46,051 bases of DNA from a virus, in the IMG/VR virus record IMGVR_UViG_3300042261_001794, positions 1 to 46,051 of that record, one strand, 5' to 3'. A program made the translations under genes and the position numbers. The notes beneath the pieces are model-generated. The model was not told the origin of the DNA and made no database searches. It saw nothing but the letters and a program-made list of their open reading frames with translations. This document shows, piece by piece, positions 3,233 to 43,179 of the stretch. How positions within the stretch are numbered: position 1 is the first letter of the stretch; the number at the start of each line of letters is the position of its first letter.

Positions 3233-3940
3233 ATGCCATTACCAATAAACAAAGTTAAAGACAACATGAGTGTAAAGGAATCAAATAATGATAATTTTGA
3301 TTTATTAAACCTCATTCAAATATCGCCAATGTTTTTATTGGGTTTTCAAAACAGTAATTCAGAAGAAAAAAAGGCTTTAAATGATATTTGGTTGTATTCA
3401 GAAGACATGGGGAATGATCGTATTAAATTAAGTAACAAGATATCCAATAAAACTATATCTATGTTAAAATCAAGGGGATTTATAAAAGGTGATGGAAATA
3501 TCATTCAAATTACCGAAAGTGGTAAAAAGGCTTTAAAAGAATCAATATTAAATGATGAAAATTCAAGTTTTACAAAAACCGCATCTAAGAAATTAATAGC
3601 AAAAAACAGTTATGATTTTGGACATGAGGTTTTGGTTCGATTGAATAATGCCGACAAATTTGGAACCAGATATATTTGTTTATCAAAAAAATATTTTTCA
3701 AAAAGTAATTTAATTGCAAAAAACATAAGCAAATATACAATCAGTGCCAAAAATGAAGATGGATCATATAAAAAATTAAAAGATTATAATGAAGAAGAAT
3801 TGATTCAAATCTTACATATGGCTAAAAATGTAATTAATAATATTACAAAAATAGCAATGACTGAAAATCCTCAATATGTTCCAGTTCATAGGTTAAAAGA
3901 ATTTTGTGAAATTATTATGTCGGAGTTAAATAGACGATGA
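3233..3940 (+). CDS. Winged-helix-like hypothetical protein
   Basis: A 235-aa protein. Residues 62-104 read like a winged helix-turn-helix: a helix (KLSNKISNKTISMLKSRG), then a turn and a beta wing (FIKGDGNIIQITESG), then a closing helix. This resembles MarR/archaeal-type DNA-binding folds. An FTKTAS peptide (113-118) after the domain matches the recurring hydrophobic-x-K-x-A motif of this window. The C-terminal half is helical and unassigned. A strong SD (AAGGAG) precedes the ATG, and the stop overlaps the next start by 4 nt (ATGA). A regulatory DNA-binding role is possible but not shown. Confidence 0.68.
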   Translation: MPLPINKVKDNMSVKESNNDNFDLLNLIQISPMFLLGFQNSNSEEKKALNDIWLYSEDMGNDRIKLSNKISNKTISMLKSRGFIKGDGNIIQITESGKKALKESILNDENSSFTKTASKKLIAKNSYDFGHEVLVRLNNADKFGTRYICLSKKYFSKSNLIAKNISKYTISAKNEDGSYKKLKDYNEEELIQILHMAKNVINNITKIAMTENPQYVPVHRLKEFCEIIMSELNRR

Positions 3941-4281
3941 AGATAATTTTATTGGCAGATAACGATGACAAAAGAAGAAATGGTTTAATGCATCACCAAC
4001 CAATTTCACTACAGGAATGTGCCTTTTTTAAATTTCCATATGAAGGAAAACATTCATTTTGGAATAAAAATGTTGATTTTCCAATATCGTTAATTTTTGC
4101 TAATAAAAATATGGAAGTTGAAGATGTCAAGTATTTAGACAAACAACAAAGAGAATCTGTTTCTCCTGATTCTTATAATATTAAATATGTTGTAGAAGCG
4201 CATAAAGATGCTCCAGAATTATATAAAATAAAAAAAGGATCTAAAATAAACATAAAAAACGGTGAGGTTTCATTTAAATGA
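3937..4281 (+). CDS. DUF192 family protein
   Basis: A 114-aa protein matching the DUF192 pattern: an N-terminal RNGLMHH (14-20, the family's RxxGLM), a central FWNKNVDFPISLIF (41-54, equivalent to FWMKNTxxPLDxxF), YVVEA (84-88), and a terminal GSKI near 101-104. DUF192 proteins are small beta-sandwich proteins of unknown biochemical role, common in bacteria, archaea and some large phages. Both ends overlap neighbours by 4 nt (ATGA), so translation is coupled to the winged-helix gene upstream and the nucleotidyltransferase downstream. Confidence 0.72.
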   Translation: MKIILLADNDDKRRNGLMHHQPISLQECAFFKFPYEGKHSFWNKNVDFPISLIFANKNMEVEDVKYLDKQQRESVSPDSYNIKYVVEAHKDAPELYKIKKGSKINIKNGEVSFK

Positions 4282-5327
4282 TTAATATTCCTGAAGAAAT
4301 AAAAAAAGACATACTTTTAATAAATCAAGTATCAAATGATTTAAAAATGAAACTTTATGTGGTTGGCGGATTTCCAAGGGATATGGTGATGGGGGCTCCC
4401 GTAACCAATGAGACTGATCTTGATGTGACAGAAGGAAATGGAAATGCTTTCGATTTAGCTTTTTTTGTTTCCGCCAAATATAATTTACATGAACCGATTG
4501 TTTATGGATCTTCTGGCACCGCAATGGTAAATATGGCTAGTGGCAGAACCGTGGAGTTTCATAACGCCTTTTACAATGCTCCACACATAATTGATCAATT
4601 ATACTTGATGGGGATTGAACCAACATCAATTAATAAAGATATATATTGCCGTGATTTTACAATTAATACATTATTATTTGATATAGAGACTGGTGAAATT
4701 TTAGATTTAACTAAATTAGGAATTCAGGATATAAAAAATAAAATTCTAAGAACACCGTTACCAGCAAAAAAAAGTTTAGAAATAAACCCAAAAATAATAA
4801 TACGTGGAATTAGATTCAAATTGCAATTTGACTTAAAAGAAGAAGAAGAATATGCAAAAGAAGTGATTAATTATATTCCTAATTTAATAGAATGGTTGCA
4901 GCAAAACAAGAATAGTAAATTTGTTAGGAATCATGTAGGAAAGGCATTAGAAATAAATGCAACAAAGGCCGTAGAAGAGTATTCTCGTCTTGGTATTTTG
5001 GAATATTTACCAAGCAATCCAGATATAGATAATGTTATTAAAAATAAAATGTTTGGAACAACAGTTAATCATGAATCATTTGATGGTAATGTAAAAACAG
5101 CACAAACAAAAATGATGCAACATATGATGATGGAAAGAGAAAAACATAAGGCTTATATGCGCAGAAAAAAAAGAGAAGACAAACAAAAGAAAATGGAAAA
5201 ATTTAAAATATTAGACAGGGCAAGAAGTGGTTACTATATAGATAATGCTGAACCAGATTTTGTTAAAAATAGAAAAATAGATAAAAATAGAAAATTATTT
5301 CAATATATAACTGAAAGGAGTTTCTAA
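4278..5327 (+). CDS. Class II tRNA nucleotidyltransferase / poly(A) polymerase-like protein
   Basis: A 349-aa Pol-beta superfamily nucleotidyltransferase. The GGFPRD motif at 30-35 and the metal-binding DLD at 47-49 form the catalytic head. CRDFTIN at 124-130 corresponds to the RRDFTxN nucleotide-recognition motif, and IRGIRFKLQF (175-184) to the RAxRF segment that follows. The family adds CCA or poly(A) to RNA 3' ends. The C-terminal region lacks an HD domain and ends in a very basic helix (about 285-310, Lys/Arg-rich), likely an RNA-binding tail. It lies one small gene upstream of a second, larger nucleotidyltransferase, so the two may divide labour as split CCA-adding enzymes do. That division is inference. 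Confidence 0.82.
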   Translation: MINIPEEIKKDILLINQVSNDLKMKLYVVGGFPRDMVMGAPVTNETDLDVTEGNGNAFDLAFFVSAKYNLHEPIVYGSSGTAMVNMASGRTVEFHNAFYNAPHIIDQLYLMGIEPTSINKDIYCRDFTINTLLFDIETGEILDLTKLGIQDIKNKILRTPLPAKKSLEINPKIIIRGIRFKLQFDLKEEEEYAKEVINYIPNLIEWLQQNKNSKFVRNHVGKALEINATKAVEEYSRLGILEYLPSNPDIDNVIKNKMFGTTVNHESFDGNVKTAQTKMMQHMMMEREKHKAYMRRKKREDKQKKMEKFKILDRARSGYYIDNAEPDFVKNRKIDKNRKLFQYITERSF

Positions 5328-5792: not shown

Positions 5793-8654
5793 ATGTTTAA
5801 TTATAAAAAAACAGCTATGGAATCAAGTGAAAATATAATTGAAAAACAACTTCCGATTCCATTATCAAATAATCTATTATTTATTTTAAGCGAATTAAAA
5901 AAACAAAATAAAATGGCGCTAATCGTTGGTGGTGCTGTAAGGGATTCTTTGCTTGGAGCCGCATCAAAAGATGTTGATATTGAAGTCTACGGTGTTGATT
6001 ATAATGAATTATTTGAAATCATGAAAAATATCAGTGGCAAATTAGAAAACAACAGGAGTGTTGTTAAAACTCATGTTGATATTGTTGGTAATGCTTTTGG
6101 TGTGTTGAAATTTTATATCGAAAATTTTCATGGACATAAAGAGGATTTTGATTTTTCCATACCCAGAAGAGAAAACAAATCTGGTGGTGGACATAAGGCA
6201 TTTGATATAAAAGTTGATTCAACAATGACGCCAAAGGATGCAGCTTCAAGAAGAGATTTTAGTATCAATGCAATGGCATATGACCCACTTACATATCAAT
6301 TACATGATTATTACGGCGGGTTACAAGATATCGAAAATAAAATTTTAAGAGCAACTAGCTCTGCCTTTGCCGAAGATCCTTTAAGGGTACTTCGCGGGAT
6401 GCAATTTGCTGCTAGATTTGATTTTACACTAGATGAAAAAACAGCAGAAGTGTGTAAAGAAGTTCTTCATGATGTTTATGAAATTAATAATAAAAACATA
6501 ACGATGAAAAAATATGAAGAACTAATACCTATATTTTTAGAAGATGGATCTATAAACCAAAAAGTTCCAGCATTTGTAAAAAACAACATATCCAAGATAG
6601 TTAATGGAAAATTATCAGATATGGAAATAAAATCTTTTATTCAAATATATAACAAAAATCAAGAAAAACTAGAAGATGGAGTTTTAATAAAAGAAATATC
6701 ATTATCCGATAAAACAGTAACATACTTAAAACCATTAATTCCTATGAGCAGAATATCCGAAGAATGGATGAAACTTCTAACAAAAGGGAAATATCCAGGA
6801 AGCCTACTTAAATTTTTAATGGATTCTGGTTGGATTGAAATTTATCCAGAAATCAAAAACATTATTTCTGATTTACCAGGAGAGGAATGGGTTGGAAAGG
6901 GCGTTCCCCAAGACCCAGAATGGCATCCTGAAGGAAATCTTGAAAAGCATATAACTCAAGCTTTAAATAATGCTGCATTAATTGCAGATAGAGAAAAATT
7001 AACAAAAGAAGAAAGGGCTGTTTTAATTTTATCATCATTATGTCATGATTTTGGAAAAGCAATCACTACAAAAAAAGAAATGAAAAATGGAGCAGAACGA
7101 ATTACGTCCAATGGACATGATGTGTCTGGTATTGATTTTACTAAAACCTTTCTCAAAAGGATTGGAGTTACAAAAGAAATTGCTGAACAAATAGTTCCGC
7201 TTGTTCAATATCATATGGTTCATATTGACCAATATAAGGAAAATTCAAAAAACTGGAACGTTCTTCAATTGGCCGAAAAAATAAAACCTGCAAATATAAA
7301 ATTATTGACTATGTTAATCGAAGTAGACCATTCTTCACGTATTGCAGATAATAATTCGGTTTATCCATCTCAAAATACTGGAATTCCGGATAAGGCAAAA
7401 ATAATGATGGACAACGCAATAAAAAATAATGTTTTTTACGAACCATTAAAACCATTTTTACAAAATAAAGCTGGAGAATTATTGCCGCTGATTCATAACC
7501 ATAAACATAATAAATTTTTAGGAACAGTTCAAAATGAAGTCAAACAACAACAATTAATGGGTAATTTGAAAAATGAAACAGAGATTTGGAATTATGCTAA
7601 AACTAAATTAGTAGATTTAATTGTTTCCGACATTATTGATACAAAAACAGATATAATAGATAGATTAAATATTGATCCAAAAACACAGGGACCAATGATT
7701 AGTGAAATAAAAATGAATTTAAAGTTAGCTTATTTAAATGGAGAAATAAAAAACAGAGAGGATTCATTAAAATGGATTGATAAAAACTATAATATAAACA
7801 TAGATATTGAAGCAGGAGAGGAAAATAAAATGTTAAAATTTTCTAAACATAATATGAATTTTGATAAAGAACAACCAGATATAATTGAAATTATATATAA
7901 AGAATTTTGTTCTGATTCTCCAAATTGGAATAAAATTCGTCATTTTTTACAGGACGATGAATTTTTAAAAGAATTAATGAGTTTTTATCATGCGGATAAT
8001 AATTTTGCAAAAGAAACATATGAAGAATTGCTAAATGAATTTCATAATGAAGAAATAGCAGCCCACTCAAACAAGGTTATAAAAAAAGCAGAAGTATTTA
8101 ATCAGGCACCAGTTATCGATCTTAACGATCCCTTTAATGAGTTAAGAAGTTATGTTTCAAGTGATGTTATTGATCGTGCAATTACTTATATCCAGAGGGT
8201 AGAGGGGGATATAATTACTGGTATTGCTCATGTCGGGGTATTGTTTGATAGCGGTAAATTAGGCATGTTTCAAACTCATTACGATAATATGGTTAAAGAA
8301 GAAGTGAGCAAGCAACAAGGTTTAAATCAAAATGATTTAAACAATATAAAAAATGATCGTAAAGGTGTATCTATTTTAGTTAATCCGCAAAGAATAAAAA
8401 TGGAATCAAATAAATTATTAGGACAATCTTATGACGAAGATGACCACAAAGAAGTTTTTGCTATCGTACTGGCAGAAGTGATTTGTCATGAGATTACTCA
8501 TGCCACTGGTGGTAAGAGCAATAACCCGGCAAATGACGAATCTCAACCAGTAAATTTTGAACGAAATTTTTTACACGAGATTATTAAAATTGTAAACAAT
8601 GAAAGATCGCAAATAGGTAAATCACCATTAAATATTGCTGTAAAAAATAATTAA
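5793..8654 (+). CDS. CCA-adding-like nucleotidyltransferase / HD / HExxH fusion protein
   Basis: A 953-aa multidomain protein. The ATG at 5793 is chosen because AAGGA lies 7 nt upstream; an in-frame ATG at 5733 lies inside the previous gene and has no SD. Residues about 25-240 are a class II tRNA nucleotidyltransferase: GGAVRD (46-51), DVD (60-62), RRDFSINAM, and EDPLRVLRGMQFAARF. Residues about 370-480 are an HD phosphohydrolase domain, with H386 and the H418-D419 pair, as in bacterial CCA enzymes that also have phosphatase activity. The C-terminus (about 780-953) has HEITH at 899-903, a zinc-peptidase-like HExxH motif with acidic residues downstream. I know of no CCA enzyme with such a tail. 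Expected action: tRNA 3'-end repair plus a separate peptidase-like activity. An internal SD-ATG at residue 680 could release the C-terminal part alone. Confidence 0.85.
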   Translation: MFNYKKTAMESSENIIEKQLPIPLSNNLLFILSELKKQNKMALIVGGAVRDSLLGAASKDVDIEVYGVDYNELFEIMKNISGKLENNRSVVKTHVDIVGNAFGVLKFYIENFHGHKEDFDFSIPRRENKSGGGHKAFDIKVDSTMTPKDAASRRDFSINAMAYDPLTYQLHDYYGGLQDIENKILRATSSAFAEDPLRVLRGMQFAARFDFTLDEKTAEVCKEVLHDVYEINNKNITMKKYEELIPIFLEDGSINQKVPAFVKNNISKIVNGKLSDMEIKSFIQIYNKNQEKLEDGVLIKEISLSDKTVTYLKPLIPMSRISEEWMKLLTKGKYPGSLLKFLMDSGWIEIYPEIKNIISDLPGEEWVGKGVPQDPEWHPEGNLEKHITQALNNAALIADREKLTKEERAVLILSSLCHDFGKAITTKKEMKNGAERITSNGHDVSGIDFTKTFLKRIGVTKEIAEQIVPLVQYHMVHIDQYKENSKNWNVLQLAEKIKPANIKLLTMLIEVDHSSRIADNNSVYPSQNTGIPDKAKIMMDNAIKNNVFYEPLKPFLQNKAGELLPLIHNHKHNKFLGTVQNEVKQQQLMGNLKNETEIWNYAKTKLVDLIVSDIIDTKTDIIDRLNIDPKTQGPMISEIKMNLKLAYLNGEIKNREDSLKWIDKNYNINIDIEAGEENKMLKFSKHNMNFDKEQPDIIEIIYKEFCSDSPNWNKIRHFLQDDEFLKELMSFYHADNNFAKETYEELLNEFHNEEIAAHSNKVIKKAEVFNQAPVIDLNDPFNELRSYVSSDVIDRAITYIQRVEGDIITGIAHVGVLFDSGKLGMFQTHYDNMVKEEVSKQQGLNQNDLNNIKNDRKGVSILVNPQRIKMESNKLLGQSYDEDDHKEVFAIVLAEVICHEITHATGGKSNNPANDESQPVNFERNFLHEIIKIVNNERSQIGKSPLNIAVKNN
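7814..7832 (+). promoter_or_regulatory. Internal ribosome binding site and in-frame ATG
   Basis: AGGAGAGG at 7814-7821 is followed after 8 nt by an in-frame ATG (residue 680 of the fusion protein). The new N-terminus MLKFSKHN resembles other true starts in this window. Translation here would give a 274-aa product containing the HExxH region. Caution: the Gly-Glu-Glu codons alone produce an SD-like sequence. Confidence 0.4.
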
Positions 8655-8668
8655 CATGGAGAAAATTA

Positions 8669-9886
8669 ATGAAAAAAGCACTAACTTTGATTTCAAAAAA
8701 TGTAAATAGTGGATTAAAAATATTAGAAAAAGTAATTGATCAAAACGTTAATCCAATAGATGTTTTATCTTTTTTATATATACAAGAAAACGATAACATT
8801 GCGACAAAAGGCATGAAAAGACAAGCCTTTATTAAAATAAAAAAACAACTTGATGACAATAACACCAATAACGATGAAATATCAACAGAATTAGAAAATG
8901 TTATTGATAGTTATTTTAATAATAAAGAAAAAATCTGTATAGATGATTATGAGACCATTATTTTTGATGCGGATAATACCATTTGGGAAGGCGAATGTGC
9001 TGCCAACTTAATAGCCCCATTTAAAGTAGAACAAGACATGTTAACGGATTCTCAAGGAAAACAAATTAGGCTCAAAGACGGAATTGTAGAAGTTTTAAAT
9101 AAATTAAGAGAATATGGTAAAAACATCGGATTAATTAGCAAATCCGAAAAAGAGAACATTGATTATCAAAATCAACCTATTATATTGGCTTTAAAAGCCT
9201 TTGGTTTATTAGATTTATTCAATAAAGAAATAGTTATTGATGGTAATTTACCAAAAAGCATTTTTATGCCAAAGGAACCGCATGTTTTATTTATTGATGA
9301 CAACATTGATAATTTAAATGACGTAGATGAACATACTAATGCCAGTGTTTTTAATGCAAAAAATATTAAAGAATATGAAAATGATTTGTTTGATTTCGAT
9401 TCAGACATAGAACCTTTAGAGGTTTTAGAATATGAAGAAGATGAGGATATTGATGAATTAACAAAAAATTTTCTTCAAGAAGATGATGAAGTAGCCATTC
9501 CGTTTTTAGATGGTGTCTTGATTAGAGCTAAAATAAAAAAAGCATCAAGAGACCATATTCCTGCATCGGAAATTCCTAAAAAACCAAATGGGAAAGGAGA
9601 ATATGAATTAGATCATATGAAACCAAAACATAAGGGAGGACAAGATAAAAAAGACAACCTTCAATGGATACCTAAAAATGAACACGAAAAAAAATCTAAA
9701 GATGAAGGTTCTTTTGAGTATGGTGGCGAAAAGAGACAAGATTTGTTTAAAAATGAAAAATCGTATCATAAATTCCAAAGTGATGCAGCCAAAGAAAAGA
9801 TAAATCAAGAAAAATCTAAACTTGGCGAAAAGGGGTTTAGCGATTTACAATCAGAACGAGCAAAGAAAAGATGGAACAAAAAATAA
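8669..9886 (+). CDS. HAD phosphatase fused to an HNH nuclease domain
   Basis: A 405-aa protein. Residues about 96-245 are a HAD hydrolase of the MDP-1/FkbH type: DxDxT nucleophile motif at D100-A-D102-N-T, a Ser/Lys motif in GLISKSEKE, and the acidic LFIDDNIDNL segment. After an acidic linker (about 245-275) comes an HNH nuclease-like domain with ELDH (313-316) and an Asn in KKDNLQW (N330), followed by a Lys-rich tail ending ERAKKRWNKK. The N-terminal 95 residues are helical and unassigned. HAD plus HNH suggests end-processing of nucleic acid, as in phosphatase-nuclease repair enzymes, but the substrate is unknown. The SD (ATGGAGAAA) is good and the gene overlaps the next by 16 nt. Confidence 0.78.
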   Translation: MKKALTLISKNVNSGLKILEKVIDQNVNPIDVLSFLYIQENDNIATKGMKRQAFIKIKKQLDDNNTNNDEISTELENVIDSYFNNKEKICIDDYETIIFDADNTIWEGECAANLIAPFKVEQDMLTDSQGKQIRLKDGIVEVLNKLREYGKNIGLISKSEKENIDYQNQPIILALKAFGLLDLFNKEIVIDGNLPKSIFMPKEPHVLFIDDNIDNLNDVDEHTNASVFNAKNIKEYENDLFDFDSDIEPLEVLEYEEDEDIDELTKNFLQEDDEVAIPFLDGVLIRAKIKKASRDHIPASEIPKKPNGKGEYELDHMKPKHKGGQDKKDNLQWIPKNEHEKKSKDEGSFEYGGEKRQDLFKNEKSYHKFQSDAAKEKINQEKSKLGEKGFSDLQSERAKKRWNKK

Positions 9887-28954: not shown

Positions 28955-29821
28955 TTAGCTGGTAGCTGTTAAGTTAATTTTGGCCAAAGCGTAGTCATTG
29001 ATGACTACGACTCCCAACTCTTCATAAATTACCCAACCAAGTCTTAAGTTTTTAGGATCATCTGCGGGTAAAACAGTGATGTCTTGACGAACAGGAATTG
29101 CACCAACATATTCAGCAGGAGCAAGTAGGAAAACTTGTCCTTCGGGAACACGATGGGAAACGTGAATGTCGCCTGTCCATAAGTGACCGAATAAACCGGA
29201 CATAAGAACGTCACGACGAGTTGCTTCGTCATAAACATCACGACCAAACAAACGAAGATCGGCATATTGACGTGGATGCATAACGATTTTAGCAACAGTC
29301 AGGTCATGTGATTCAATTGTGCTGAAAGCGTAGTTCAAGGAAGCGATAGACAAGTCACCAGATTGGGTAACAGTCTGATTGGAACGAACTGAAGTGCCGA
29401 TAGCGGCAAGGATTTCAGTATCTTCCAACTTTTGGATAGCTTCTTTTGATTTCATTTGGGCGCGGTCAACAATGTAGAAACGGCGAGCTTTGATTTCGCT
29501 CAAACGGATCTGAGGATTAACTGCGATTTCCCAAGTAGGAACAAGAACTTCTTCGCCTTCAACGATCATGTCAGGCACTGCGCCACGGCGAGCGACAACA
29601 TGAGCAACAGAGGTCACATCCTTCTCATATCTGGCAAGAGCGCCTTGGGGCAACTCATCAACCATAAGAAGTTTTCTACCAATTGCCTGATATTCAAGGG
29701 CGCGTTTGATTGGTTCAACCATTGCTTGGGCAAGGGCAACACGACCTTCAGGTGTTTCAAGAGCTTGAGCAATAATAGCTTCACGCTGCTTGTCATTGTA
29801 GTTAGATTTAATCATTGACAT
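28955..29821 (-). CDS. Major capsid protein (HK97-fold)
   Basis: A 288-aa shell protein. The N-terminal helix (residues 1-50), then VARRGAVPDMIVEGEEV and VPTWEIAVNP (E-loop/P-domain region), the spine-like helix QMKSKEAIQKLEDTEILAAIG, and the C-terminal HPRQYADLRLFGRDVYDEATRR and GWVIYEELGVVVIND stretches fit small HK97-fold capsid proteins of large phages. Codon use is clearly more GC-rich than in surrounding genes, as expected for the most abundant virion protein. AAAGGAG precedes the ATG, and a dedicated terminator follows. Position at the end of the portal-protease-scaffold run supports the call. The exact family is not named because I cannot run a profile search. Confidence 0.82.
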   Translation of the reverse strand: MSMIKSNYNDKQREAIIAQALETPEGRVALAQAMVEPIKRALEYQAIGRKLLMVDELPQGALARYEKDVTSVAHVVARRGAVPDMIVEGEEVLVPTWEIAVNPQIRLSEIKARRFYIVDRAQMKSKEAIQKLEDTEILAAIGTSVRSNQTVTQSGDLSIASLNYAFSTIESHDLTVAKIVMHPRQYADLRLFGRDVYDEATRRDVLMSGLFGHLWTGDIHVSHRVPEGQVFLLAPAEYVGAIPVRQDITVLPADDPKNLRLGWVIYEELGVVVINDYALAKINLTATS

Positions 29822-38454: not shown

Positions 38455-41400
38455 TTACTTATCTAATAAATTAAATAATTCCTCTTTTTGATTAATTAGA
38501 TTTTCATAATCTTCATCATTATTATCAAAATCTTCTAAAACAATTTCATCAATCATAATTTCAGCAGTTTTTATATTATCCGTACTGGCTATTGTTTTCA
38601 TTTTTGGAACTTTGTTCGCTTTTTCTAAGTCTTTTGCTGTTTCAATAATTGTTGCAACAACATCCTCCAATGAGTATTTTATTTCGTCTTCAGTAAATCT
38701 TAAAACAGTCCAACCTAAACTTCTTAACCTATCATCTCTATTTTTATCTTTAGCCATATCTTCATCAGAGGAATGCCACTGTTTACCATCTGCCTCAACA
38801 ATTAATTTAATTGTTGGAAAGAAACCATCAACAACAACTCTTGGCATATGTTCTGGCTCTGGTTTTTGTTGCCATACAAAATCCATAGGGAGATTATTTG
38901 TTTTTTGTGCTTCCTCTATTTTTAAATATAATTTCATTTCTAATTCAGTTAACCTAATAGCCCCATCTCTAGGTCCATAATATAAACCATCTTCTGGAGA
39001 AACCTGTTTTGGTGTTTCTATCTTTGGAGATTTTGGTTCGTTTAATTTGTATTTATTTGGTCTATGAACATTTGGGGCAATATTTTTTGCTTGATTATAG
39101 TTTTTTAATTGCGATTCATATGACGCCATAGATGGTCCGCCAGACGGTGCTGCTGATCCACCAGCAGGACTAGGCATTCCGCCGCTCATTGAAGGAGCAA
39201 GTCCATCCCCAGGTAAACCGGGAGCGCCACCACCACCAGGTGTTTTGCCCATGCCACCACCTTTACCGCCACCGAAACCACCGCCTAAACCACCGCCTAA
39301 ACCACCACCGCCACCAAATGGTTTGTCTGAACCATCTGATGGAGCGATACCATTTTGTTGCTGATAACCAGTTTCAAGACGAACTCTTTCAGTTTCAACA
39401 TCATAATTAATACCAAGCTTTTCAAGTATAAATTGACTGGAAACAAGTCTTTTTTCCCACAATTGCATATATAATTGGTTTTTTTGTGATTCGTCTCTCA
39501 AGTTCAAATCAGACCATGTGATTTCTGGATAATCTAATATTTGATTTCCCTTTAGGTCTTTTTTATAAAAACCTCTCATTTGCGCTTCTAATCGATATAC
39601 TTTTTCAGTAATCCATTCAGCCAGCATATTTTGAACTGTAGATAATCTTTTAATAGTTGCTTCAATACCAATTGCAGCTTGTGAGTAGGACGGTCCTTCG
39701 CCCGAAAGCAACGCCTCATTAACTCCTAAACCTTTAATCAAAGCTTTGTCAATTAATTCATATTCTTTGGTTAACTGAAGTACTTTGCCCGAATTACCAT
39801 GAATTCCTAATTTACCATTTAATCTAACAATAAATATATGATTAGGAACTTCAAAACACCATACTTTTCCCTTGTAATCAATTTTTTTTCTATTTCTATT
39901 TATTTGTAAATCATTTCCATTTTTTTCTTTAGAATTATCTGACCAAAGAATTCTATAAATATCATTATGTTTATCATTTTTTCTTAATTCTTTAGATATT
40001 GTAGGGAAATAACCTAATTTAAATAAAATTTCTTGAATATCATCAGCTAATTGTTTGGAAGTTGTTGAATATCTATTATTTGCAACTTTATTCTTTGTGT
40101 ATTTTATATCCCGATCACCCATCATTAAACTTCTCAACAATGTTTCAAGATATTTTTTTGGAAGATTTTTCATCCAAATAGGTATTTTTTTATCTGCACA
40201 AACAAAACCAAAATTTGATGCAACAAATCTTCCAAATTCAGAATTATCAATAATAAAATTAATATTGGTATTTTTCCTTTTTTTATCTCTTCTATCATCA
40301 ATTTTTATTCTATAATTATTAAAAAGGTTATTCATAACGTCTTCTAAATGTTTATAATATTTACTATTTAAATTTTGAGATATAGAAATTCCAGTTATTG
40401 ATTTTAATTCTTTTCCATTGCTTCTTTGTGTTTCTCCTTCACTTAAATACCAACCAATAAAAGATAGCCATAATTTTAAATTTTTATCTTTTAAAATTGA
40501 TATTGACTCAAAATCAAATGAATCAGGAATATCTCCTTCAAAATTAATAGTATTTAAAAACTTAAATTTATTAGTTTTATTAATATTTTTAGATTCAATT
40601 AAATTATAATTATTTCCATAAATATATTTGTTTTCAAACGGACTCCACTCCCCTGTGTCTGAAAACATTTTATGATTATTCGTAACTTCAATATCTACAA
40701 ATTTCGATTTATATTTATGGATTGAACCATATGTTTTATAATCATAATCATATTCAAATTTATTAATATATTTATGATATTCCATATTTTTTGTTTCTTG
40801 ATTATATGTTGCGATTAAATCATCTTCAGTTACATCGTAATATTTTAAAAAACCTCTATGAGTTAAAACCTCAACATTTTCGGTATAGCATGACCCTACC
40901 CATTGAAAATCAAAATTATTATGAGTAACCAATGTTAAATTTGGATCGTTAGCGGTCATTGCTAATTGCCTTTGAGTATCAGCAATGTCTTCTGGCCCAG
41001 CCGGTTTTAAATCACTACCAATTTTACAGATTTTTATTGGTAAAATATGCCTATCGGCAACAATCCATTGTGCTTGACGTAACTTATCCTGATATGCTAA
41101 TGTTGGAAATAATGGAGCAATAATTGAACGACCATAAGCATTATAAGGAATTTCATCATGCTTCATATGTGTAATTGTACGGTTGCTTAATGGAATTGGT
41201 TTTTGCGAAAGAATTAATTTTTTCATATGATCCGGTATTTTATTATATAATTCGACCGGTTTTTTAGACCAAACAATTTGTTTCATTTCATCATCAGGAA
41301 TAAATGATATAATTGGTTCTGAAGGGTTTAATTTATTTACTTGAACATCAATCCAATCTGGATTCATGATAGAAATATTACCAATTTGTCCACCTTCATG

Positions 41401-43179
41401 ATTACAAACATTACCATCTGACATTATTCCAAAACCATGACATTTTGGACATTGGATGGATATCATAACAAAGGCATCACCTAATGCAAAATATTCATAT
41501 GCAATTAATGGAAGATGATATTCTAATCTTAATCTTTTCTTTAGTTTATCAAAATGTTCTTTACGATGTGCATGATTAATCACATTTTCAAATCCATGAA
41601 ATGGGAATTGTGCATAAAATCTTAATGATGAAGCAATTGTAGGATCATTCTGTGCAAAAAATCTACAATTACTTACTTTAAAACCAGAGCAAACATAACT
41701 TCTCTCAGGGTCTATTTGGATATCATAACCTATTCCATTATATAAATATTCTGTTATTTCACAAATTTGCTGTGCGAAATATTTATTTCCATCTTCATCT
41801 TTAGTAAAAAATTTCAAAACTCTATCGCCATTAGATTCATAATTGAAATTTTCATCAATTTTGCTAGATCTCATGTAAGGTTTTAATTTATATACTTCGC
41901 TTGCAGGAACAAATATTCTATAAATCCATTCTGAACTATGTTTATATGTTTTCTCTTGATCAGTATCTACATAATCATTATAATGAGGATATTTATTTAA
42001 ACTACAATTAATACCACACATTAAAAGCATGAAATAAAGTTGATCAGCCATATCTTTAGATACATTATTTGCAATTAGTTTGGACTGACCATTAAAAGAA
42101 CCGTCTCCATCAAAATAACCACCAAGAATATGAAGCATTTGTTCTTTTGTGAGGTGTAATATTTCTTTTGTGAATTTTTTATTATCTAGTTTTCCTTTTA
42201 TGAAAATTGAGAATTCATCATAAGATCTTTTATCTTCAGAATAAATTCTTCTGCAATTTACACTATTTGAATGTTCTTTATTTTTACATGAGGAATATCT
42301 TTGATTAAGAATATTTTCTATATTTGTAATTATATTTGGTCTATCAGTTCCACAATTATAATGGATATAACCAAAATTACCATGTTCGCATAAAGTTCCA
42401 TCGGCAATTTCTAATCCAACAGCCCACATAAAATCGTTATCAAAATCAACATATTTTGATTCTAAAAATTTAGGAACAGGTGTGAGAAGAAAGTCTTTTA
42501 ATTCAACCTCTTCTGCTTTGATTCTTTCAATTTTCCACTTACTATTATTGATGAATTCTTTTTTACCAGTGTTTCCACGCGATCCTTCTCTATAAAGTTT
42601 TTGTTCATATTTTTTAACAGTATCTTTAAGTTTTTTACCTTTAATAACATAAACATTATGTTCTTCAGAAACAGAAAGATCATTGTAATAACCAAATGTT
42701 TTTAATTTAATAAATCTTTTATCGCTACACTCTCTTTCGAAATAATTAATAGGTTTACGTAATTCTCCAACCCCACCATGTATATTGCTTGAAATGATGT
42801 TTTCATAAACAATTCCATTTGTTAAAGTGTCCTGAGTAATTGCTGTTGGCGTAAATTTAAATTCGGAAATTGGAACATAAGTCAAATCCTCTTGCAACAT
42901 AAGTCCTTTAGAATCAATTAGCCACATGTAAACTTCTCTTCGTTTAGTGGGAATTTGCCAATTAACAGGTGTGTGTATAGGGTTATAAAATCCAGCAGAA
43001 GTATAAGCAATTGAATTTGCCGATCCAAACACAGACGAAGAGGCATAATTAGCAAATTTTAATTTTGGTGAATTATTATTACTATTTTTTTTAACTAAAA
43101 TTGATTCATTTATTATATCTTCTGCTGATCTGCCATCTTTTGTAAAGCTATTACCAGCCATTTTAAACACATAAGTCAT
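38455..43179 (-). CDS. Portal protein with two inteins and a C-terminal nuclease-like domain
   Basis: A 1574-aa precursor. Portal segments are residues 1-86, 505-763 and 1130-about 1280: RREVYMW joining CRFFAQNDPTIASSLRFYAQFP, EYFALGDAF, a zinc site (C577, C580, C592, H594), NPDWIDV, and GLGVNEALLSGEG. Two inteins (87-504 and 764-1129) each carry a LAGLIDADG endonuclease. After splicing the protein would be about 790 aa. A Gly/Pro-rich linker (about 1288-1350) leads to a Vsr/DUF559-like PD-(D/E)XK domain: D1451, E1462, D1464-G, W1468-H1469, then RDDRLRSLGWTVLRF (1481-1495). The portal forms the DNA-entry ring; the nuclease tail is unexpected. AGGAG precedes the ATG. Confidence 0.85.
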   Translation of the reverse strand: MTYVFKMAGNSFTKDGRSAEDIINESILVKKNSNNNSPKLKFANYASSSVFGSANSIAYTSAGFYNPIHTPVNWQIPTKRREVYMWLIDSKGLMLQEDLTYVPISEFKFTPTAITQDTLTNGIVYENIISSNIHGGVGELRKPINYFERECSDKRFIKLKTFGYYNDLSVSEEHNVYVIKGKKLKDTVKKYEQKLYREGSRGNTGKKEFINNSKWKIERIKAEEVELKDFLLTPVPKFLESKYVDFDNDFMWAVGLEIADGTLCEHGNFGYIHYNCGTDRPNIITNIENILNQRYSSCKNKEHSNSVNCRRIYSEDKRSYDEFSIFIKGKLDNKKFTKEILHLTKEQMLHILGGYFDGDGSFNGQSKLIANNVSKDMADQLYFMLLMCGINCSLNKYPHYNDYVDTDQEKTYKHSSEWIYRIFVPASEVYKLKPYMRSSKIDENFNYESNGDRVLKFFTKDEDGNKYFAQQICEITEYLYNGIGYDIQIDPERSYVCSGFKVSNCRFFAQNDPTIASSLRFYAQFPFHGFENVINHAHRKEHFDKLKKRLRLEYHLPLIAYEYFALGDAFVMISIQCPKCHGFGIMSDGNVCNHEGGQIGNISIMNPDWIDVQVNKLNPSEPIISFIPDDEMKQIVWSKKPVELYNKIPDHMKKLILSQKPIPLSNRTITHMKHDEIPYNAYGRSIIAPLFPTLAYQDKLRQAQWIVADRHILPIKICKIGSDLKPAGPEDIADTQRQLAMTANDPNLTLVTHNNFDFQWVGSCYTENVEVLTHRGFLKYYDVTEDDLIATYNQETKNMEYHKYINKFEYDYDYKTYGSIHKYKSKFVDIEVTNNHKMFSDTGEWSPFENKYIYGNNYNLIESKNINKTNKFKFLNTINFEGDIPDSFDFESISILKDKNLKLWLSFIGWYLSEGETQRSNGKELKSITGISISQNLNSKYYKHLEDVMNNLFNNYRIKIDDRRDKKRKNTNINFIIDNSEFGRFVASNFGFVCADKKIPIWMKNLPKKYLETLLRSLMMGDRDIKYTKNKVANNRYSTTSKQLADDIQEILFKLGYFPTISKELRKNDKHNDIYRILWSDNSKEKNGNDLQINRNRKKIDYKGKVWCFEVPNHIFIVRLNGKLGIHGNSGKVLQLTKEYELIDKALIKGLGVNEALLSGEGPSYSQAAIGIEATIKRLSTVQNMLAEWITEKVYRLEAQMRGFYKKDLKGNQILDYPEITWSDLNLRDESQKNQLYMQLWEKRLVSSQFILEKLGINYDVETERVRLETGYQQQNGIAPSDGSDKPFGGGGGLGGGLGGGFGGGKGGGMGKTPGGGGAPGLPGDGLAPSMSGGMPSPAGGSAAPSGGPSMASYESQLKNYNQAKNIAPNVHRPNKYKLNEPKSPKIETPKQVSPEDGLYYGPRDGAIRLTELEMKLYLKIEEAQKTNNLPMDFVWQQKPEPEHMPRVVVDGFFPTIKLIVEADGKQWHSSDEDMAKDKNRDDRLRSLGWTVLRFTEDEIKYSLEDVVATIIETAKDLEKANKVPKMKTIASTDNIKTAEIMIDEIVLEDFDNNDEDYENLINQKEELFNLLDK
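39793..40890 (-). mobile_element. Portal intein 2 (class 1 type, LAGLIDADG)
   Basis: 366 aa, C764 to N1129. Cys1 begins CYTENVEVLTHRGF (block A), block B is VDIEVTNNHKMF, and the LAGLIDADG motifs lie at LSFIGWYLSEGE (905-916) and LETLLRSLMMGD (1011-1022). Block F/G has VWCFEVPNHIF and ends GIHGN with Ser+1. The C-terminal His is displaced one residue (HGN rather than HN). Exteins QWVGS and SGKVLQLTKEYE join cleanly. Confidence 0.85.
41668..42921 (-). mobile_element. Portal intein 1 with non-canonical ends (LAGLIDADG)
   Basis: 418 aa, L87 to N504, with Cys+1 at C505. Block A-like sequence is GLMLQEDLTYVPISEF, block B is LSVSEEHNVYV, and the endonuclease motifs are VGLEIADGT (254-262) and ILGGYFDGDGS (351-361). 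Block F is YDIQIDPERSYV and the end is GFKVSN. Residue 1 is Leu and the penultimate residue is Ser instead of His, so splicing would need a class 2-like direct attack by Cys+1, or may be impaired. Confidence 0.78.

Follow-up and report, generated by a model that had tools for sequence, protein, structure and literature searches.

A class II CCA-adding-type tRNA nucleotidyltransferase joined to a predicted zincin-like phage domain in an uncultured virus record

In this study, we analysed the gene at positions 5793 to 8654 of IMG/VR virus record IMGVR_UViG_3300042261_001794, whose whole stretch of 46,051 bases (29.5% GC) is called the window; loci and phage records compared with it carry L and G numbers. 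The gene encodes a CCA-adding-type tRNA nucleotidyltransferase with an HD domain, joined in one chain to a tail of 274 residues (680-953) that probably represents an undescribed family of zincin-like phage domains. The preliminary description of this DNA had proposed such a union with a metallopeptidase-like domain, and it is borne out by matches to PF01743 and PF01966, by the motif HEITH at residues 899-903 and by the predicted fold. Our tentative preference is for a tail that acts as a peptidase, processing phage proteins and thereby freeing the tRNA-end enzyme.

The open reading frame (ORF) has no internal stop in its 953 residues, and AAGGA seven bases upstream supports the ATG at 5793. 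Besides the Pfam matches in Table 1, PHROG 2244 (tRNA nucleotidyltransferase) matched the protein at E 1e-55. The head-domain strings VGGAVRD (45-51), DVD (60-62), RRDFSINA (153-160) and EDPLRVLR (194-201) are intact, so that GGxVRD, DxD, RRDxxxN and EDxxR, the catalytic head-domain motifs of class II CCA-adding enzymes, are all present. The protein missed the NCBIfam equivalog cut-off (146 bits versus 451 for PRK10885). Judged by its sequence, the body is a class II CCA-adding-type tRNA nucleotidyltransferase with an HD domain.

HEITH is the sole HExxH in the protein and also in all stop-to-stop frames of at least 40 codons in the window. The motif needed independent support because HExxH arose in 3.4% of 20,000 shuffled tails and in 6.1% of as many shuffles of the whole protein. 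By itself it is weak evidence, and it is the conservation across aligned family members that lifts it above chance. Exact tail peptide patterns gave no relative in viral_contigs and none among 23 pattern matches in genome_contigs, tblastn of residues 680-953 gave none in annotated phages, and neither the tail nor its profile retrieved anything useful from the PDB sequences. The family emerged once relatives of the window's major head protein were fetched: 50 records, mostly these, were searched whole with the window tail, and three matched at E <= 1; a further record, G048, is syntenic and was reached via the neighbouring gene for a second nucleotidyltransferase (NTase2). These four were read alongside the window to give a five-sequence alignment and profile. 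The profile matched 12 of 50 records in a largely overlapping set (the 12 include its own four other members) and none of 42 further records (31 head-protein relatives, mostly short, and 11 CCA relatives). A scan with the five-sequence alignment returned one locus, G002 again; a nine-member scan of viral_contigs returned 19 loci, ten of them on contigs already in the set; and tblastn with family members added one uncultured phage, LR756511 (L166), which gave the sole match to the HExxH domain among the annotated phages. In a later search, a 20-row profile matched 12 of 14 records, with none in G029 and G034. Left out before counting were G011, whose fusion protein is identical to that of G043, and the duplicate contigs L147, L148, L152-L155 and L157-L160.

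Five columns are invariant in the alignment of 21 sequences, which includes the window and L166 (absent from the 20-row version): a glycine, both histidines and the glutamate of HExxH, and a second glutamate downstream of it. In window numbering the HExxH-E residues are H899, E900, H903 and E916 (21/21). The other members share 16-31% identity with the window in this alignment, and 10 of the 210 pairs exceed 60%, one at 97% (L161 and L163, both among the 21 rows). A profile built without the window found the window tail at E 1e-15 (best of 200 shuffles, 3.5 bits), and one built without the window, G002 and G048 found it at E 2e-8 (4.2 bits), these values being calculated for a database of one million sequences. 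Leave-one-out profiles recovered 21 of 21 members at E values from 1e-9 (G048, the weakest) to 4e-88, the best of 100 shuffles per member reaching at most 6.4 bits. G048 was missed by the window tail alone and by the window protein search of the compared loci; its membership rests on synteny, the leave-one-out value and a pairwise alignment with the window tail (E 1e-6), and it scored 35.5 bits against a profile without the window and G002 (best shuffle, 11.7). Pfam searches of 20 members gave a best E of 0.0087 among the matches listed, which covered 25 of 38 families. PHROGs searches of eight family proteins gave nucleotidyltransferase matches that come from the fused partners, and otherwise at best phrog_8054, a group of unknown function, which hit the G048 protein at E 0.018. 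In annotated phages, tblastn of the G048 protein found no match, and tblastn of a fusion protein found 20 records that matched its C-terminal part only (residues 754-986), leaving the HExxH domain unmatched. With no convincing match in Pfam or PHROGs, the family appears to be undescribed, and the tail is a genuine, conserved phage module with a probable metal site.

Two trivial origins of the tail were rejected. An assembly chimera is ruled out by the divergent G002, in which HD domain and tail share one frame (35% identity over residues 380-951). The tail is also not a normal part of CCA enzymes, as the preliminary description had recognized in calling it foreign to that family: the ten IMG/VR relatives whose CCA proteins include a nucleotidyltransferase body (L001-L010) lack both HExxH and a tail of this kind, and an eleventh, L011, is a short HD protein only.

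In an AlphaFold2 model of the window tail (mean predicted local distance difference test score, pLDDT, 81.7; predicted template modelling score, pTM, 0.65), HExxH ends one helix (tail residues 203-226) and E916 (tail residue 237) precedes the last one (238-261). The first 20 VIA-align rows for this model are all HExxH or zincin-type structures, namely an HExxH oxygenase domain, Acel_2062, YbeY and relatives, selecase, lethal factor (11 rows) and ERAP2, with some unlabelled entries assigned to their families by us. The best row is the oxygenase HExxH domain 8s5f (Z 7.3 over 123 residues, 3.4 Å). When the stand-alone L164 homologue was modelled in turn (mean pLDDT 70.9), VIA-align aligned only 224 chains, and rows 1-13 are zincin-type with Wss1 first (best Z 7.2). 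Foldseek placed the minizincin selecase first for the window tail at E 1.1, and found nothing at E <= 0.001 among viral models. The tail is likely to have a zincin fold because the zincin list recurs in two models and the predicted ligands are invariant, and not because of any single Z. An HExxH motif with a third conserved metal-ligand residue, which defines zincins, has its counterpart here in H899, E900, H903 and the candidate third ligand E916. The metallopeptidase-like tail of the preliminary description thus withstood the structure prediction and the search for a candidate third ligand.

The HExxH domain sits behind a CCA-HD enzyme in the window and in G002. The G002 gene is interrupted, with the CCA part in one frame and HD plus tail in another; between them, after HPEG, is a 300-residue endonuclease-like ORF (L122 8595-9497) with a weak match to NUMOD3 (E 7e-4, just under the cut-off). 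G048 shares with the window the order helicase, WYK/zinc-ribbon-like protein, winged helix, DUF192, NTase2 and small protein, and its tail lies at the same locus in a 418-residue protein of its own, without the CCA enzyme. The N-terminus of this protein is similar to the N-terminal extension found on the CCA protein of G002 (score 65, reached by none of 2,000 shuffles; maximum 61). This similarity suggests either insertion of the CCA enzyme into an older protein or its loss in G048. In 13 phages (G003-G007, G009, G012, G037, G043, L149, L150, L151 and L156), the HExxH domain and, behind it, a homologue of NTase2 form a single chain of 787-1,250 residues; Pfam confirmed the nucleotidyltransferase in both fusion proteins scanned, and that of G007 is cut short and its assignment weak. 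Trypsin-like peptidase genes lie near the fusion gene in both fusion loci scanned.

Stand-alone members of 203-258 residues occur at five loci (L161 and L163-L166), so that the tail is found, with G048, as a separate gene in relatives, a point which the preliminary description had left to be looked for. Upstream of the L164 gene are a head maturation protease (PHROG 207) and then a gene in the scaffold position (no PHROGs match of note), and next before it come the gene for the major head protein (E 4e-83 to PHROG 138) and one with matches to both endonuclease VII and head closure. L163 has this gene order by resemblance only, and we infer that these phages are T4-like. The N-termini of stand-alone members (e.g. 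MKSFIQWLEQ and MDFKKWM) presumably resemble a T4-type capsid targeting signal. Around the L166 gene, 31 tRNA genes were predicted in an array of 18.5 kb; in a simple check, none of them (0/31) encodes the 3' CCA. Far from this gene, the same record holds a weak match to the window nucleotidyltransferase (E 2e-4). The HExxH tail is a movable module that has been shuffled among phages.

The best reading of these data is a processing peptidase with the tRNA-end enzyme among its partners. The metal would be bound by H899 and H903 and, where the next helix starts, by E916 as the final ligand, with E900 activating water. The tail would cut phage proteins, either its own chain or partners made alongside; the cut would free the tRNA-end enzyme as a payload, which would repair or mature tRNA 3' ends in the infected cell. 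Zinc binding, peptidase activity, substrate, timing and virion entry are what we infer in this reading. If the tail is active as a peptidase, it would represent an undescribed phage zincin family, and protein processing would be paired, unusually, with the repair of tRNA 3' ends; large phages may then produce translation enzymes within multi-domain chains that are processed, perhaps for use as virion cargo. That the CCA enzyme is retained to serve many phage tRNAs is weakened by the few tRNA genes of G002: its 146 kb record holds a tmRNA and two tRNA-like genes, and the anticodon of one of these is incomplete. The window, for its part, is no more than a fragment.

A short string at module borders may be related to such processing. 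W[YF][KR]xA, typically MNWYKKAQ, begins at 11 of 5,830 positions in residues 1-10 of 583 distinct clade genes (1.89 per 1,000) and at 12 of 154,479 beyond residue 40 (0.08 per 1,000), an N-terminal excess of about 24-fold. It stands N-terminally in unrelated proteins, for example in L020, L025, L026, L064, L074 and L150, and internally in L124, L139-L142, L144, L145, L149, L156 and L122. Over a wider set of 844 genes it has 12 N-terminal and 15 internal copies; ten of the latter lie directly behind the zincin domain of a fusion protein and one before the CCA domain of G002. The motif [WFIM]x[KR]xAQ, picked post hoc, occurs 49-64 residues past HExxH in 11 of 13 fusions versus 33 of 6,500 random 80-mers. 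Observed and expected numbers of the strict string are 2 and 0.24 in the window, 3 and 0.24 in G002 and G048 together, 10 and 0.44 in the fusion loci, and 2 and 0.80 in the CCA relatives; those of the loose string are 8 and 2.6 in the window, 19 and 4.1 in the fusion loci, and 9 and 5.3 in the CCA relatives. No string of the WYKxAQ type was found in the open-access literature searched. Its occurrence at the start of unrelated clade proteins is in keeping with a signal for processing or sorting where modules meet; it may be a processing site, a sorting (packaging) tag or a trace of gene fusion. A fuller scenario, in which WYKxAQ marks the start of units for packaging or processing, the zincin family is the enzyme, or one of several, that cuts there and the window protein is a virion-delivered CCA cargo that repairs defence-clipped tRNA ends at the onset of infection, is improbable as a whole.

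Several observations weigh against the processing peptidase. Stand-alone members have nothing to cut in cis, and the window gene lies about 20 kb from that of the major head protein (28955-29821; PHROG 2522, E 1e-64). PF18818, the Pfam zincin of polyvalent proteins, was unmatched in all 11 records searched, window included, at E <= 10, and it was also absent among the families listed (25 of 38) in the Pfam scan of 20 members. No structural match reaches Z 8, and values below this can, by the tool's own warning, reflect a common arrangement only; the 11 lethal factor rows among the first 20 for the window tail are copies with a root mean square deviation of 6.7-9.9; and Foldseek found nothing in PDB at E <= 0.001 for either model (best E 0.43). 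As to the string, G037 has KKAQ only and G005 has none, and the window protein starts with FNYKKTAM, a loose match only. A looser pattern occurs in 2 of 157 genes of G002, 5 of 80 of G048 and 3 of 44 of the window, some of them plainly by chance, and the loose string is not enriched in G002 and G048 (1 observed versus 2.4 expected).

Among the alternatives, the one that survives best, and which we still consider unlikely, is that the zincin, once delivered or expressed, cleaves host proteins (those of defence or translation, for example), the fusion only bringing it to targets associated with tRNA or the ribosome. Host-directed zincins are proposed in passages of a survey of jumbo phages (PMC7824862), and the conservation of the tail in phages with differing partners speaks for this role; however, the position of the L164 gene among head genes is more typical of virion work. 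A role in host defence, which the preliminary description had also raised, is unlikely since the genes lie in phage records, and a role in infection or counter-defence is possible.

The chances are poorer that the zincin-fold tail acts on RNA in the manner of the endoribonuclease YbeY, itself of zincin fold, and processes tRNA 3' ends together with the CCA enzyme. Both models have YbeY (7y7o) among their best rows (Z 7.1 and 6.8), a 3'-5' exoribonuclease-like gene comes after the tail gene in G002 and G048, and the stand-alone gene of LR756511 lies within a tRNA array. However, YbeY has a three-histidine motif without the catalytic glutamate, whereas the glutamate of HExxH is invariant in the present family.

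The preliminary description had suggested that tRNA status could be coupled to protein cleavage; in such a model, the state of tRNA ends, sensed by the CCA enzyme, would turn the peptidase on or off. In accordance with this, the modules are fused in two divergent phages (the window and G002), and the HExxH domain is joined to nucleotidyltransferases of the same fold in two different arrangements. However, HExxH-E is intact in G048, an 83 kb record in which the window protein matches NTase2 only; the domain stands alone elsewhere; and five of nine further domain-bearing records, mostly fragments, have no match to the window protein at E <= 0.001. The alignment of NTase2 proteins at the nucleotidyltransferase motif also bears on this point. 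DxD is kept in all three separate proteins (window, G002 and G048) but in only 3 of the 13 fusions (G037, L149 and L156). It is replaced in the other ten, with both positions still acidic in four (G003, G006, G043 and L151) and at least one non-acidic in six (G004, G005, G007, G009, G012 and L150), while HExxH and the downstream glutamate are retained in 13 of 13. The metal site is more strictly kept than the nucleotidyltransferase site and is independent of a working nucleotidyltransferase neighbour. This difference argues against a tRNA-sensing switch as the general function, and we regard such a switch as very doubtful; it does not argue against a switch in the window protein itself, in which both sites are intact. 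The replacement of DxD beside an intact metal site gives a clear, testable prediction on which half does the essential work. The fused NTase2 series (compare window 4278-5327 with L123, L124, L139-L142, L144-L146, L149-L151 and L156) includes possible pseudoenzymes, judging from these replacements.

Equally doubtful is a metal enzyme with HExxH that is not a peptidase (e.g. an alpha-ketoglutarate-dependent oxygenase), or an inactive, structural metal domain: the oxygenase domain 8s5f heads the list for the window tail, but it is tied with peptidase-type folds and absent from the list for the L164 model, for which only 224 chains were aligned. Finally, a chance HExxH in an ordinary C-terminal extension, such as the shuffled tails produce, is ruled out for practical purposes by H, E, H and E in 21 of 21 members.

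Table 1. Positions of the gene, its parts and neighbouring genes in the window
Feature	Position	Strand	Basis or remark
Whole gene: class II tRNA nucleotidyltransferase, HD domain and zincin-like tail (predicted)	5793..8654	+	single 953-codon ORF
N-terminus MFNYKKTAMES	5793..5825	+	loose likeness only to the clade string WYKxAQ; without W
Nucleotidyltransferase head domain, residues 43-186	5919..6350	+	Pfam PF01743 (poly(A) polymerase head domain), E 1e-19
EDPLRVLR, residues 194-201	6372..6395	+	fits EDxxR
Insert of ~80 residues in CCA body (~231-315)	6483..6737	+	absent from G002 (versus L122 7391-8539)
HD domain, residues 385-494	6945..7274	+	Pfam PF01966, E 7e-6, 26.7 bits versus cut-off 22; LCHDFGK 416-422
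Helical tail part, residues ~693-770	7869..8102	+	model; aligns only with G002 and G048
Zincin-like domain, residues 778-953	8124..8651	+	AlphaFold2 model; VIA-align rows span tail residues 99-274
HEITH 899-903, predicted metal ligands H899 and H903, predicted catalytic E900	8487..8501	+	invariant 21/21
E916, predicted third metal ligand	8538..8540	+	invariant 21/21; residue directly before last model helix
Winged-helix-like protein	3233..3940	+	matched at 10/11 compared loci (exception L144); weak sub-cut-off Pfam match to HTH_45
DUF192 protein, part of conserved neighbourhood	3937..4281	+	Pfam E 7e-17; synteny
NTase2, DLD intact	4278..5327	+	Pfam PF01743, E 4e-15; homologous to the nucleotidyltransferase fused to the HExxH domain elsewhere

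Other features of the window and its relatives were also observed. At 8669-9886 of the window, a gene with homologues in G002 and G048 encodes a fusion of a HAD-type phosphatase part and an HNH-nuclease-like part. A portal-like ORF (38455-43179) of 1,574 residues has two separate portal stretches and perhaps an intein. No tRNA genes were predicted in the window, and Rfam gave nothing at gathering thresholds for the window and L122. G002 has a tRNA with anticodon TCA (L171 5917-5988), a tmRNA gene (L173 3864-4262) and, two genes past the tail gene, a subtilisin-type peptidase with an intein (L122 11914-14112). The CCA genes of other relatives are likewise interrupted at conserved motifs: L002 (7950-10181) and L009 (7998-11066) have inserts after HPEG, and L009 has an intein-like insert at the RRDF motif.

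The window protein resembles class II CCA-adding enzymes and the phage tRNA nucleotidyltransferases of PHROG 2244 and PF01743 in its head motifs, HD domain and C-terminal region; unlike them, it has an insert of about 80 residues and a zincin-like tail. In passages of the jumbo-phage survey, CCA enzymes appear as tRNA repair enzymes and zincins as maturation or host-directed proteases, separately (PMC7824862), and a paper on huge phages names CCA enzymes (PMC7162821, in part). Among the matches listed in the open-access literature searched, there was no description of a fusion of an HExxH domain with a CCA-adding enzyme. In the compact fold round HExxH, the modelled tail is like the minizincins Acel_2062 (3e11), selecase (4qhf) and Wss1 (5xbn), a likeness at fold level only (Z about 4 to 7); Acel_2062 is described with the motif HExxHxxGxxD (PMC3890501, in part), and here the putative third ligand is a glutamate whose spacing varies among members. 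For T4, an excerpt reports that internal head proteins are packaged via a short capsid targeting sequence and that one of them is injected and blocks a host nuclease (PMC3012670). The virion RNA polymerase of N4, an ejected RNA enzyme with an HExxH domain in the sections concerned (PMC12633501, PMC5512222), likewise joins an RNA-handling enzyme to an HExxH domain in one chain; it is a single-subunit RNA polymerase rather than a CCA enzyme, and packaging into the virion has been shown for N4, whereas the window protein is known from sequence. The closest parallel is with the polyvalent proteins of phages and conjugative elements (Iyer et al. 2017, PMC5512222), where, in the part of that paper on zincins, these are the commonest domain and are proposed to cut chains into working units, with an HExxH helix followed by a helix with a glutamate. 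The tail shares this predicted helix arrangement, is phage-borne and is fused to unrelated enzyme domains, and the nucleotidyltransferase, the HD domain and the zincin-like tail, the last by prediction, give the chain at least two unrelated activities around a zincin hub; it differs in leaving PF18818 unmatched and in having a full tRNA nucleotidyltransferase as its partner in a phage. A metallopeptidase-like processing module of the polyvalent type is the best reading of the tail. Multi-domain phage proteins with zincins are thus already known in principle, and it is this family and its pairing with a CCA enzyme that appear to be new.

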